From positions 186,001 to 250,000 of the forward strand of contig NZ_RCZK01000003.1 of assembly GCF_006438955.1 (NCBI RefSeq): a stretch of DNA of 64,000 nt. The letters are read 5' to 3'. Below, piece after piece: positions 18,076 to 21,714 of the stretch. The notes under the pieces are model-generated. The model was not told where the DNA came from and did not search any database. It saw only the letters and a list, made by a program, of their open reading frames with translations. The position numbers were made by a program, and so were the translations under genes. Within the stretch, counting starts at the first letter, position 1. Each line of letters begins with the position of its first letter. The DNA comes from Sphingomonas oligophenolica. GTDB lineage: Bacteria; Pseudomonadota; Alphaproteobacteria; Sphingomonadales; Sphingomonadaceae.

Positions 18076-18127
18076 GGGCTCCCGTTCGCTCTAGCCAGTG
18101 CCGCGGTTACATAGCAGAGATTGCGGT

Positions 18128-18745
18128 ATGAGCGACTGGCATTTCTATGAACCCCGCGACGGCCACAGGCTGCCGCACGATCCCTTCAACGCGATCGTCG
18201 CACCGCGCCCGATCGGATGGATCAGCACGGTGTCGGCCACGGGGGCTCACAACCTCGCCCCTTACAGCTTCTTCAACGCGCTGAATTATCACCCGCCGCT
18301 GATCGGCTTTTCGTCGACGGGGCGCAAGGACAGCCTGGCGAACGCGGAGGCGACCGGCGAATTCGTCTGGAATCTGGCCACACTCGGCTTGGCCGACGCG
18401 ATGAACGCCAGTTCTGCCACGGTTGACGCCGATGTCGACGAATTCGCGCTGGCCGGTCTGGAGACCGCGCCGTCCCGGCTCGTCGCGCCGCTGCGGGTCG
18501 CGAACAGTCCGGTATCGTTCGAATGCAAGGTGACCCAGATCGTCCGCCTGACGACGAAGGAAGGCACCGAGCTCGACCAGTGGTTCGTCGTCGGCGAGGC
18601 GACCGGCATTCATATCGATACCGCGATGCTGGAGGATGGCGTCTACCAGACCGCGCGTGCGCGCCCGATCATGCGCGGCGGTGGCCCCGCGGATTACTTT
18701 TCGATCGCCGAGGAGCAGTTGTTTCGGATGCGCCGCCCCGCCTGA
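18128..18745 (+). CDS. Flavin reductase-like FMN-binding protein
   Basis: A 205-residue protein of the flavin reductase-like family (split-barrel FMN fold). Typical segments are VAPRPIGWISTVSATGAHNLAP near residues 24-45 and FSSTGRKDSLANAEATGEF near 61-79, the FMN-contacting region. It probably uses NAD(P)H to reduce FMN or a flavin-linked substrate; the partner is unknown. The start ATG 18128 (MSDWHFYEP) matches the family's usual N-terminus better than the upstream start at 18098. It is divergent from the cytochrome gene and lies just upstream of the UdgX fusion. Confidence 0.88.
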   Translation: MSDWHFYEPRDGHRLPHDPFNAIVAPRPIGWISTVSATGAHNLAPYSFFNALNYHPPLIGFSSTGRKDSLANAEATGEFVWNLATLGLADAMNASSATVDADVDEFALAGLETAPSRLVAPLRVANSPVSFECKVTQIVRLTTKEGTELDQWFVVGEATGIHIDTAMLEDGVYQTARARPIMRGGGPADYFSIAEEQLFRMRRPA

Positions 18746-18784: not shown

Positions 18785-20170
18785 ATGCGTGTCGTGACCT
18801 TGCCCGAACCCGATGATTTCGACGCCTGGCGCGATGCGGCGCGCGCGCTTATCGCCGACGCGGTGCCGCCCGAGGATGTCGTCTGGCAGGTCGGCGATGC
18901 GCCCACCGACCTGTTCGCGGGCGAAGCCGAATCGCGCGCGACCGCGCCATCGACCGGATTCGTGGTGCCGCGCGCATTCCTCGATCTGGCGCGCACCGTC
19001 GTGCTGGGCAGCGACCCCGAACGCTTCGCCCTGCTCTACACCTTGCTCGACCGGCTGCGCCGCGAGCCCCGGCTCGTCGAGGACAAGGCCGATCCGCTGG
19101 TGCGGCGGCTTGAGCGAATCGCCAAGGACGTCCGCCGCGACATCCACAAGATGCGGGCGTTCCTACGTTTCCGCGAGGTCGAGGAAGCAGCAGGCAAGCG
19201 CTTCGTGGCGTGGTTCGAGCCCGACCATCACATCGTCCGCGCCAACGCCGCCTTCTTCGTCAACCGGTTCGCCAGCATGCGCTTTTCGATCCTGACCCCG
19301 ACGGTGTCGCTCCACTGGGATGGAAAGAACCTGAGCGAAGGCCCGGGTGCCAGCAAGGCGGACGCGCCCGACGGCGACCCGATCGAAGCGGTGTGGAAGA
19401 CGTATTACGCCAGCATCTTCAACCCCGCGCGCGTGAAGATCGGCGCAATGCTGAAGGAAATGCCGCGCAAATACTGGAAGAACATGCCAGAAACCACGCT
19501 GATCCCGGCGTTGATCGCGGGCGCACAGGGACGCGAGAGCGGGATGATCGAGGCCGCGCACGGTGCCATCGGGGGGAACAGCGTGATCGCGTGGGACGCG
19601 TTGCGCGAAGAGGCGATGGGGTGCACCCGCTGCCCGCTCTACCGGCCCGCGACGCAGACTGTGTTCGGCGAAGGCCCGGTCGATGCCGCGCTGATGTTCG
19701 TCGGCGAACAACCCGGCGACCAAGAGGATATTGCCGGACGCCCCTTCGTCGGCCCCGCGGGACAGGTGTTCGACCGGGCGCTGGGCGAAGCGGGGATCGA
19801 CCGCAGCCTCAGCTACGTCACCAACGCAGTGAAGCATTTCAAGTTCGAACAGCGCGGCAAGCGCCGCATCCACGCCAAACCCGGCACCGGTGAGATCGAG
19901 GCGTGCCGCTGGTGGATCGAACAGGAGCAGGCGCTGGTGAAGCCGCGGATGACGGTGGCGCTCGGCGCGACCGCGGCGCGATCGCTGTTCGGCCGGACGA
20001 TGACGATCGGCCGCGAACGCGGGCGCGTGCTGGAACTGCCCGCAGGCGGAGCGGCGTGGATCACGGTGCATCCGAGCTACTTGTTGCGACTGCCCGACGA
20101 GGCGCAGAGGGCCGACGAGTTCGCGCGGTTCGTCGACGACCTGCGCGGAGCGCACGCGGCAATCGGTTAG
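18785..20170 (+). CDS. udgX: DUF4130-UdgX fusion, uracil-DNA-binding protein
   Basis: A 461-residue two-domain DNA-repair protein. The N-terminal half (about 1-250) is a DUF4130 domain of the type found with radical-SAM repair enzymes. The C-terminal half is a UdgX-type family-4-like uracil-DNA glycosylase. It carries motif A as GEQPGDQED from residue 307, an iron-sulfur cysteine pair CTRC at 280-283 with a further cysteine at 374, and the UdgX-specific loop KRRIH at 359-363. In characterised UdgX the loop histidine (here H363) becomes covalently linked to the abasic site after uracil removal, so the protein stays cross-linked to DNA. The HPSYLLRL motif near 423 supplies the second catalytic segment. 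The radical-SAM partner often encoded alongside is not in this window. Start ATG 18785. Confidence 0.93.
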   Translation: MRVVTLPEPDDFDAWRDAARALIADAVPPEDVVWQVGDAPTDLFAGEAESRATAPSTGFVVPRAFLDLARTVVLGSDPERFALLYTLLDRLRREPRLVEDKADPLVRRLERIAKDVRRDIHKMRAFLRFREVEEAAGKRFVAWFEPDHHIVRANAAFFVNRFASMRFSILTPTVSLHWDGKNLSEGPGASKADAPDGDPIEAVWKTYYASIFNPARVKIGAMLKEMPRKYWKNMPETTLIPALIAGAQGRESGMIEAAHGAIGGNSVIAWDALREEAMGCTRCPLYRPATQTVFGEGPVDAALMFVGEQPGDQEDIAGRPFVGPAGQVFDRALGEAGIDRSLSYVTNAVKHFKFEQRGKRRIHAKPGTGEIEACRWWIEQEQALVKPRMTVALGATAARSLFGRTMTIGRERGRVLELPAGGAAWITVHPSYLLRLPDEAQRADEFARFVDDLRGAHAAIG

Positions 20171-20766: not shown

Positions 20767-21564
20767 TCACATCGATCGCGGATCGGGTCCCATCCGGCCG
20801 TCGGCGCGATCGAGCGCGTCGATTGCGGTCATATCCTCGTCGTCCAGCGTCAGATCGAGCGCAGCGACATTGTCGCTGAGGTGATCGGGGCTCGACGCCT
20901 TGGGGATCGGCGCCAGCCCGTGCGCGAGGTGCCAGGCGATGACCACCTGCGCCGCCGATCGCGCATGCTTATCCGCGATCCCGACAATCGTACCATTGTC
21001 GAGCAGCGTCTTGCCCTGGCCGATCGGGCTCCAGCTCTGCGTCACGATCGCGTGGTCGGCATGATAGGCGCGCAGTTCGCGCTGCTGGAAATCGGGATGC
21101 AGCTCGATCTGGTTGACGACCGGCGTCACCCCGGTCGCACCGATGATCGCGTCGAGATGGTCGGGCAGGAAGTTCGACACGCCGATTGACCGCGTCTTGC
21201 CCGCCGCACGCAGGTCGATCAGCGCCTTCCACGCACCGACGTACTGCGCCTGTCCGGGGGCGGGCCAATGGATCAGATAGAGATCGACCGCGTCGACCCC
21301 GAGCAGCGCCAGGCTTTCGTCGAGCGCGGCGGCCGGGTCGCCTTGACGATCGTTCCACAGCTTGGTCGTCAGGAACACGTCGGTGCCCTGCATCCCCTGT
21401 CCGACGCCGCGTTCGTTACCGTAGATCGCGGCGGTGTCGACCAGCCGAAAGCCGGTATCGAGCCCCTGACGGACCACCATCGCGGCCTGGGTTTCGGGGA
21501 CTTGGTAGGTGCCCATGCCAAGCTGGGGCATGGTGCGGCCATCGTTGAGGGTCAGGTTGATCAT
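20767..21564 (-). CDS. Aldo/keto reductase
   Basis: A 265-residue NADPH-dependent reductase of the AKR5-like group (2,5-diketo-D-gluconate reductase type). The catalytic tetrad is readable: aspartate in LVDTA, tyrosine in AAIYGNE, lysine in LTTKLW, and histidine in LIHWPAPG. The NADPH-binding end IPKASSPDHLSDN is present near residue 220. The preferred start is ATG 21564 (MINLTLNDGR); an upstream in-frame ATG adds a 14-residue arginine-rich stretch without family likeness. The substrate is unknown. It converges with the two small genes on the other strand. Confidence 0.93.
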   Translation of the reverse strand: MINLTLNDGRTMPQLGMGTYQVPETQAAMVVRQGLDTGFRLVDTAAIYGNERGVGQGMQGTDVFLTTKLWNDRQGDPAAALDESLALLGVDAVDLYLIHWPAPGQAQYVGAWKALIDLRAAGKTRSIGVSNFLPDHLDAIIGATGVTPVVNQIELHPDFQQRELRAYHADHAIVTQSWSPIGQGKTLLDNGTIVGIADKHARSAAQVVIAWHLAHGLAPIPKASSPDHLSDNVAALDLTLDDEDMTAIDALDRADGRMGPDPRSM

Positions 21565-21714
21565 GCTCCCGTGAACCCGCCGCGCCGCAGCAATGTTCCG
21601 CATCATCGCGGCCGTGCGCCCCCAGCCGCAGAGGCCCCGTTGAGGAGGTCATCGCTCGCATCCTTGCCGCTTTGGGCTTTTCATCGCACGCACGATGGCC
21701 CAAGTCGCAGCCCC

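Follow-up and report, generated by a model that had tools for sequence, protein, structure and literature searches.

A protein in which a UdgX domain is joined to a DUF4130 domain raises the question of whether such a fusion acts alone, as a suicide-type mark on uracil-DNA, or serves as one component of a larger repair system. The case considered here lies in a 64,000-nucleotide stretch of the Sphingomonas oligophenolica genome (the window), where a preliminary description had proposed a DUF4130-UdgX fusion that may cross-link to uracil-DNA and had recorded its radical-SAM partner as missing.

DUF4130 and UdgX are joined in a single chain

The fusion gene (18785..20170, + strand) is an open reading frame starting at ATG, with no internal stop, and encodes 461 amino acids plus stop. 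Its N-terminal half matched the NCBIfam model TIGR03915 at residues 9-237 (18809..19495, + strand; 217.8 bits against a cut-off of 112.25, E 1.8e-64), with Pfam DUF4130 at residues 78-236 (135.2 against a cut-off of 27). The remainder matched the NCBIfam UdgX model TIGR03914 at residues 239-454 (19499..20146, + strand; 315.4 bits against a cut-off of 189.95, E 2.3e-94), with Pfam UDG at residues 294-454. When compared with solved chains, the UdgX half was closest to Mycobacterium smegmatis UdgX (6ail and others, E 1.5e-52), and the CxxC, GEQPG, KRRIH and HPS motifs of the two proteins aligned. The two-domain chain and the motif positions given in the preliminary description (CTRC at 280-283, GEQPGDQED from 307, KRRIH at 359-363) were thus borne out, and as read from the predicted protein these domain and motif matches are far beyond chance.

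The architecture is already catalogued, as shown by the NCBIfam models for both halves and by plasmid gene annotations, and the fusion is an ordinary one with a name in public annotation. It matched 442 plasmid records, in 144 cases along 80% or more of the protein, and of the 15 plasmid fusions listed among these matches, 12 are called "UdgX family uracil-DNA binding protein". A counterpart on the Paracoccus yeei plasmid NZ_CP020441 has the same two domains (52.4% identity over 94% of the query) and carries that name directly after a "putative DNA modification/repair radical SAM protein"; this partner adjoins its fusion, whereas the partner in our source genome is on another contig. A sequencing chimera was ruled out as the origin of the fusion, since the DUF4130-UdgX joining recurs in relatives. 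The record holding the closest fusion among the best 80 of 587 relatives (L067, 83% identity) bears the title Microvirga sp. SRT01, which may be wrong, as nearly all others among the listed relatives are titled as sphingomonads.

The UdgX half retains the published catalytic residues and the expected cluster ligands

The published work on M. smegmatis UdgX names E52, Q53, D56, D59, F65, N91, K94, R107, H109, H178 and R184 (PMC10359453, PMC10776899). All of them are kept in the fusion, as E308, Q309, D312, D315, F321, N347, K350, R361, H363, H429 and R435, respectively. The first two and the two aspartates fall in GEQPGDQED (residues 307-315; 19703..19729, + strand), the motif holding the E52, Q53, D56 and D59 equivalents, whose roles are taken from the same reports (PMC10359453, PMC10776899). 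The KRRIH loop (residues 359-363; 19859..19873, + strand) ends in H363, the residue expected to bond to the abasic sugar, and motif B, HPSYLLR (residues 429-435; 20069..20089, + strand), holds the H178 and R184 equivalents.

We then aligned 81 fusions (our own and the best 80 of 587 relatives), of which 79 remained after two cut-off sequences were dropped. E308, Q309, F321, N347, K350, R361 and H363 were present in all 79; D312 was found in 78, the remaining fusion having E, and D315 in 75, with E replacing it in the other four; 78 fusions had H429 and R435 (a gap in one), 77 had K359 and 73 had R360. R361 and H363 were also invariant in another set of 31 fusions, and loop variants occurred in three of 30 relatives (KWRIH, TRRIH and PRRIH). 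Because the published catalytic residues are present in the fusion, its UdgX half likely traps uracil-DNA covalently through H363.

The expected ligands of a 4Fe-4S cluster are all there as well: C280 and C283, the expected first two cysteine ligands, in CTRC (residues 280-283; 19622..19633, + strand), the third cysteine, C374 (19904..19906, + strand), and the candidate fourth ligand H351 (19835..19837, + strand). Each of the four positions was conserved in 78 of the 79 aligned fusions. The sole exception at all four was a fusion from a metagenome-assembled Sphingomonas (L128, 4001-5392), where R, A, R and Y stand instead and the R361 and H363 equivalents are retained. Since this one sequence lost H351 together with the three cysteines, it suggests that H351 is the fourth ligand, and it likewise suggests a natural UdgX variant without a cluster.

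M. smegmatis UdgX (6ail, 6ajo, 8iie; PMC10359453, PMC10776899) shares with the fusion the fold region, GEQPG, the KRRIH loop, the HPS motif, the cysteines of the iron-sulfur cluster and the catalytic residues listed above; its solved chains have 205-229 residues, whereas the fusion has the DUF4130 half in front. The family 4 uracil-DNA glycosylases (UDGa) have the same fold and cluster region, and the fusion differs from them in two sequence features, GEQPG for GE(A/G)PG and an additional KRRIH loop, and would be expected to trap instead of turning over. That the UdgX half is nevertheless an ordinary turnover glycosylase is very improbable: the fusion did pass the family 4 model TIGR00758, narrowly (127.1 bits against a cut-off of 125.3), but its TIGR03914 score is far above this value, NF040953 stayed far under its cut-off (113.8 of 250), and it has both features that distinguish UdgX, GEQPG and the KRRIH loop.

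The radical-SAM partner is encoded elsewhere in the genome

The partner is absent from the window, as the preliminary description had it, and present in the genome: the search of the genome returned a TIGR03916 radical-SAM gene (G000:C1:257006-258193; 563.7 bits against a cut-off of 343.5), which rules out its loss. With the partner present, the system looks complete in the source genome. The TIGR03916 enzyme is, we assume, the same as COG4277.

We scored TIGR03916 and TIGR03915 matches over their cut-offs in a family sample of 149 genomes and a phylum sample of 299 genomes, which share some genomes. Both were found in 100 genomes of the family and 53 of the phylum sample, DUF4130 only in one (G046) and three (G350, G366 and G434, all of one genus), and the partner only in none of either. 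The corresponding Fisher p values (1.5e-38 for the family, 9.8e-56 for the phylum) come from related genomes and are not true probabilities. These counts leave out TIGR03916 matches under the cut-off, namely six of 106 in the family (five below 20 bits and a fragment of 296.3 bits in G116, a genome lacking a DUF4130 above the cut-off) and 13 of 66 in the phylum (all below 30 bits), as well as a TIGR03915 remnant in one phylum genome (G225). Among the four genomes with DUF4130 and no partner, the TIGR03915 match in G046 spans only positions 3-193 of 243, and most of the DUF4130 domain aligned in the other three. Across the sampled genomes, the co-occurrence of DUF4130 and partner is near-absolute by these model matches. 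Caulobacter vibrioides, one of the control genomes, matches both TIGR03916 and TIGR03915. In the neighbourhood of the fusion itself, the partner was within the stretch, in some cases only partly, at 73 of 80 loci (best 80 of 587 confirmed relatives); for the remaining seven, of which one (L077) is at a contig edge, it was elsewhere in the genome in every case.

The NCBIfam model identifies the partner as a radical-SAM protein, as do a Pfam Radical_SAM match just short of its cut-off (26.5 of 29.5 bits) and, loosely, a predicted model of the L067 partner. A helix-hairpin-helix match at residues 332-360 was far under its cut-off (15.7 of 27 bits). In 21 partners (our own and 20 from the phylum) six cysteines were invariant, CxxxCxxC at 70-77 plus those at 23, 49 and 58. 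Since the latter three lie outside and ahead of CxxxCxxC, they leave room for, and suggest, a second iron-sulfur cluster, presumably as in lipoyl synthase. The structure matches listed for a poor model of the L067 partner (pLDDT 67.7) were headed by lipoyl synthase, NifB, biotin synthase and HydE, with lipoyl synthase at the head of the VIA list; the matches listed for this poor model did not include spore photoproduct lyase, an absence that excludes nothing. A comparison of the partner sequence with the PDB gave one match only, HydG, at E 0.68.

UdgX is an optional part of the module

To describe how UdgX is distributed in the phylum sample, we counted only TIGR03914 matches over the cut-off (175 of 227 matching genomes were dropped) and defined as fused a DUF4130 gene within 60 bases of such a UdgX domain. 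By this definition, DUF4130 was fused to UdgX in 40 of 56 DUF4130 genomes; UdgX was further off or on another contig in two, and no UdgX was over the cut-off in 14. Seen from the partner/DUF4130 pair, 13 of 53 genomes had no UdgX over the cut-off; seen from UdgX, 10 of 52 genomes had neither DUF4130 nor partner over theirs. In three of these 10 (L239, L240 and L241) a short C-terminal remnant of DUF4130, whose best piece spans 14 to 37 residues, stands before a stop-free UdgX, and no remnant was found before UdgX in the other seven. As judged from these matches, UdgX is optional in the radical-SAM/DUF4130 module, and where the radical-SAM enzyme is gone DUF4130 tends to be gone too, with UdgX still present.

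A UdgX that stands alone and scores over the cut-off was observed in a genome of the same genus (L244, G430:C1:138092-138733), where neither DUF4130 nor the radical-SAM enzyme was over the cut-off.

These distributions bear on what the fusion does, and we consider it probable that it is a component of a known SOS-linked DNA-repair module, in which the UdgX half traps and DUF4130 partners the radical-SAM enzyme. The UdgX half would excise uracil and then bond to the abasic sugar via H363. The DUF4130 half, as the partner of the radical-SAM enzyme, would probably be a docking or DNA-handling subunit, and by way of the fusion radical chemistry would reach uracil or abasic damage in the SOS response. 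The lesion treated by the pair is probably not the UdgX cross-link alone. The fusion is an addition to a known kind, with likely chemistry and with its missing partner found.

A different proposal casts the radical-SAM enzyme, with DUF4130 as its guide, as the means by which the UdgX-DNA cross-link is reversed or resolved. The three parts do co-occur, and 94 of 100 family genomes share a common operon, but such resolution cannot be the sole function given the 13 pair genomes without UdgX and the 10 UdgX genomes without the partner, and we regard this proposal as improbable. In view of the same two counts, the function of the pair probably extends beyond making or resolving a UdgX cross-link.

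The original suggestion of a suicide-type mark keeps its chemical part, as the UdgX catalytic residues are there, and is not the whole story, since the 13 genomes just mentioned hold the module without UdgX. In its strict form, in which the fusion alone is the mark, UdgX cross-links abasic sites and DUF4130 only aids binding or recruits general repair. The retained catalytic residues speak for it, as do the 10 genomes showing that UdgX can act alone, but the partner never occurs without DUF4130, DUF4130 without partner is confined to one of 101 family and three of 56 phylum genomes, and the partner is retained even where the fusion is unlinked (7/7). On balance this strict form is unlikely, and we continue with the fusion as a component of the SOS-linked module, for which the near-constant company of the TIGR03916 enzyme gives DUF4130 a concrete setting for its role.

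Structural leads for the DUF4130 half

Not one of the 29 solved-chain sequences that matched the fusion covered its DUF4130 half, and a predicted model of this half was of fair quality (pLDDT 82.6, pTM 0.74). The model bears on a further alternative, that DUF4130 is an enzyme or DNA-binding domain with a DHH/RecJ-like fold, processing the DNA end or abasic site after UdgX. In the VIA comparison the best match had Z 8.1 (8a8k, 179 aligned, rmsd 4.6) and RecJ (1ir6) had Z 7.7 (171 aligned, rmsd 3.8), ranks 1-25 being occupied by PAP phosphatase, RecJ and Cdc45, where we assume the assignment of some chains to Cdc45 and take the others from their titles. Foldseek was led in the PDB by family II pyrophosphatases and among viral models by several named phosphohydrolases, but neither collection gave a match at E <=0.001, and a best Z of 8.1 falling to 4.7 at rank 50 is typical of models without a match (best 7-8, rank 50 4-5).

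DUF4130 sequence comparisons with Pfam, a PDB profile search and hhalign against RecJ gave no DHH support either. On 72 DUF4130 members, Pfam returned, besides DUF4130, only ACAS_N (4/72, best E 0.0096) and two single weak matches; the profile of the 72 sequences matched solved chains at chance level only (best E 0.039, a designed Bcl2 inhibitor); and hhalign against Sphingomonadales RecJ gave a probability of at most 0.1, with shallow alignments (Neff 2.1 and 3.1). From the phylum DUF4130 alignment, six of 20 regions were dropped. A DHH-type fold, as suggested by the model, is a lead only, and the alternative built on it is improbable.

A variant of the module reading makes DUF4130 the obligate subunit of a two-cluster radical-SAM repair enzyme, possibly itself degenerate DHH/RecJ-like, and UdgX an optional covalent tether at uracil sites in the SOS response. 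We hold this variant to be rather unlikely; if it were true, with UdgX as an optional anchor, the "suicide" adduct would be a tether and not a dead end.

The ancestral operon is split in the source genome

Counting as adjacent a fusion directly downstream of the partner, at most 2 kb away on the same strand, we found adjacency in 94 of 100 family genomes, the six exceptions being the source genome, G005, G027, G010, G028 and G084. Adjacency to the partner is thus usual and not defining, and its absence weakens a claim of an operon, not that of a module. In close relatives (e.g., L068, L071, L074 and L079) the order is SMC-like gene, partner, fusion, aldo/keto reductase. In the source genome the SMC-like gene and the partner are still together, with a purK-like gene next (the SMC and purK names come from reading the ORFs), while the fusion and the aldo/keto reductase gene (20767..21606, - strand), which lies downstream of it here as in these four relatives, are on another contig. 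Given this distribution over two contigs, the ancestral order, as reconstructed from the relatives, is broken between its second gene, the partner, and its third, the fusion, and the aldo/keto reductase beside the fusion is, on the same reconstruction, a trace of that order. On its other side, a flavin-reductase-like gene (18098..18745, + strand) ends 39 bases before the fusion; since it had no match at E 1e-8 in 80 related loci (best 80 of 587 relatives), it may be a neighbour acquired after the split.

The split is not an effect of contig ends, as both genes are well inside contigs of 514,385 and 273,348 bases; a misassembly within a contig could still be its cause.

Between partner and fusion, 31 of 73 linked loci have a hemerythrin-like gene of about 160 amino acids (L083:3507-3989, L121:3493-3972 and others; PF01814, 62.1 bits for the L083 protein), which also stands directly before the fusion in three of six unlinked loci (L072, L080 and L093). 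It is absent from the 64-kb window, and the three PF01814 matches over the cut-off in the source genome yielded no ortholog of it (24% identity to the operon hemerythrin over 114 residues, 30% over 46 residues, the third unaligned). As a guess, the hemerythrin-like protein may protect oxygen-sensitive clusters.

A LexA-type box is kept at the partner

PMC8565304 gives the alphaproteobacterial LexA motif as GTTC-N7-GTTC. A box of this type, GAACGTAAAGAGAAC, stands two bases before the ATG of the partner ORF (L002:1483-2730), and an exact one was found just upstream of the partner at all 31 loci of a first sample (our own and the best-scoring 30 TIGR03916 matches). In a second sample, overlapping the first in species and reduced from 73 to 71 by dropping two partners cut by the locus end, 69 loci had an exact box upstream of the partner, as compared with 28 of 1420 random stretches of equal length; of the two loci without it, one is cut by a contig end and one has a single mismatch. 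The seven partners from genomes whose fusion locus is without partner all had an exact box upstream.

The 64-kb window, by comparison, has no exact GTTC-N7-GTTC box (1.67 expected by chance). Within 400 bases upstream of the fusion there is one box with a single mismatch, at about 18411, inside the flavin-reductase-like ORF, and the 400 bases upstream of six other unlinked fusions have none with one mismatch allowed. By this motif search, the LexA-type box is kept in the source genome only at the radical-SAM gene and not at the fusion, from which it follows that predicted co-regulation of partner and fusion is not universal. The same arrangement, unlinked genes with a box only at the partner, is a further point for the fusion acting alone as a suicide mark, set against the retention of the partner described above. 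Under the module reading, which we still prefer, the source genome and the few relatives with a split pair are natural experiments on how tight co-regulation needs to be.

The SOS link of such an operon is not new and has already been published. According to PMC8565304, a COG1573-COG4277 operon of Bacteroidetes is predicted to be SOS-controlled, and the paper cites the same kind of regulation for Verrucomicrobia and Alphaproteobacteria. In that operon, as presented there, a glycosylase and a second gene are under LexA and base excision repair is predicted; unlike it, the source genome has its box only at the radical-SAM gene.

A tighter pattern, GAACNTANNNNGAAC, has four copies in the source genome and none in a reversed control; the three copies other than the one at the partner are beside an rmuC-like gene, an rlmN-like/GFA pair and a SplB-like radical-SAM gene (names from reading the ORFs). 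The genome's own lexA has two overlapping copies of the box. The boxes by the SplB-like radical-SAM gene and by the rmuC-like gene, both named from their ORFs, are at L066:1501-1515 and L064:1501-1515, respectively.
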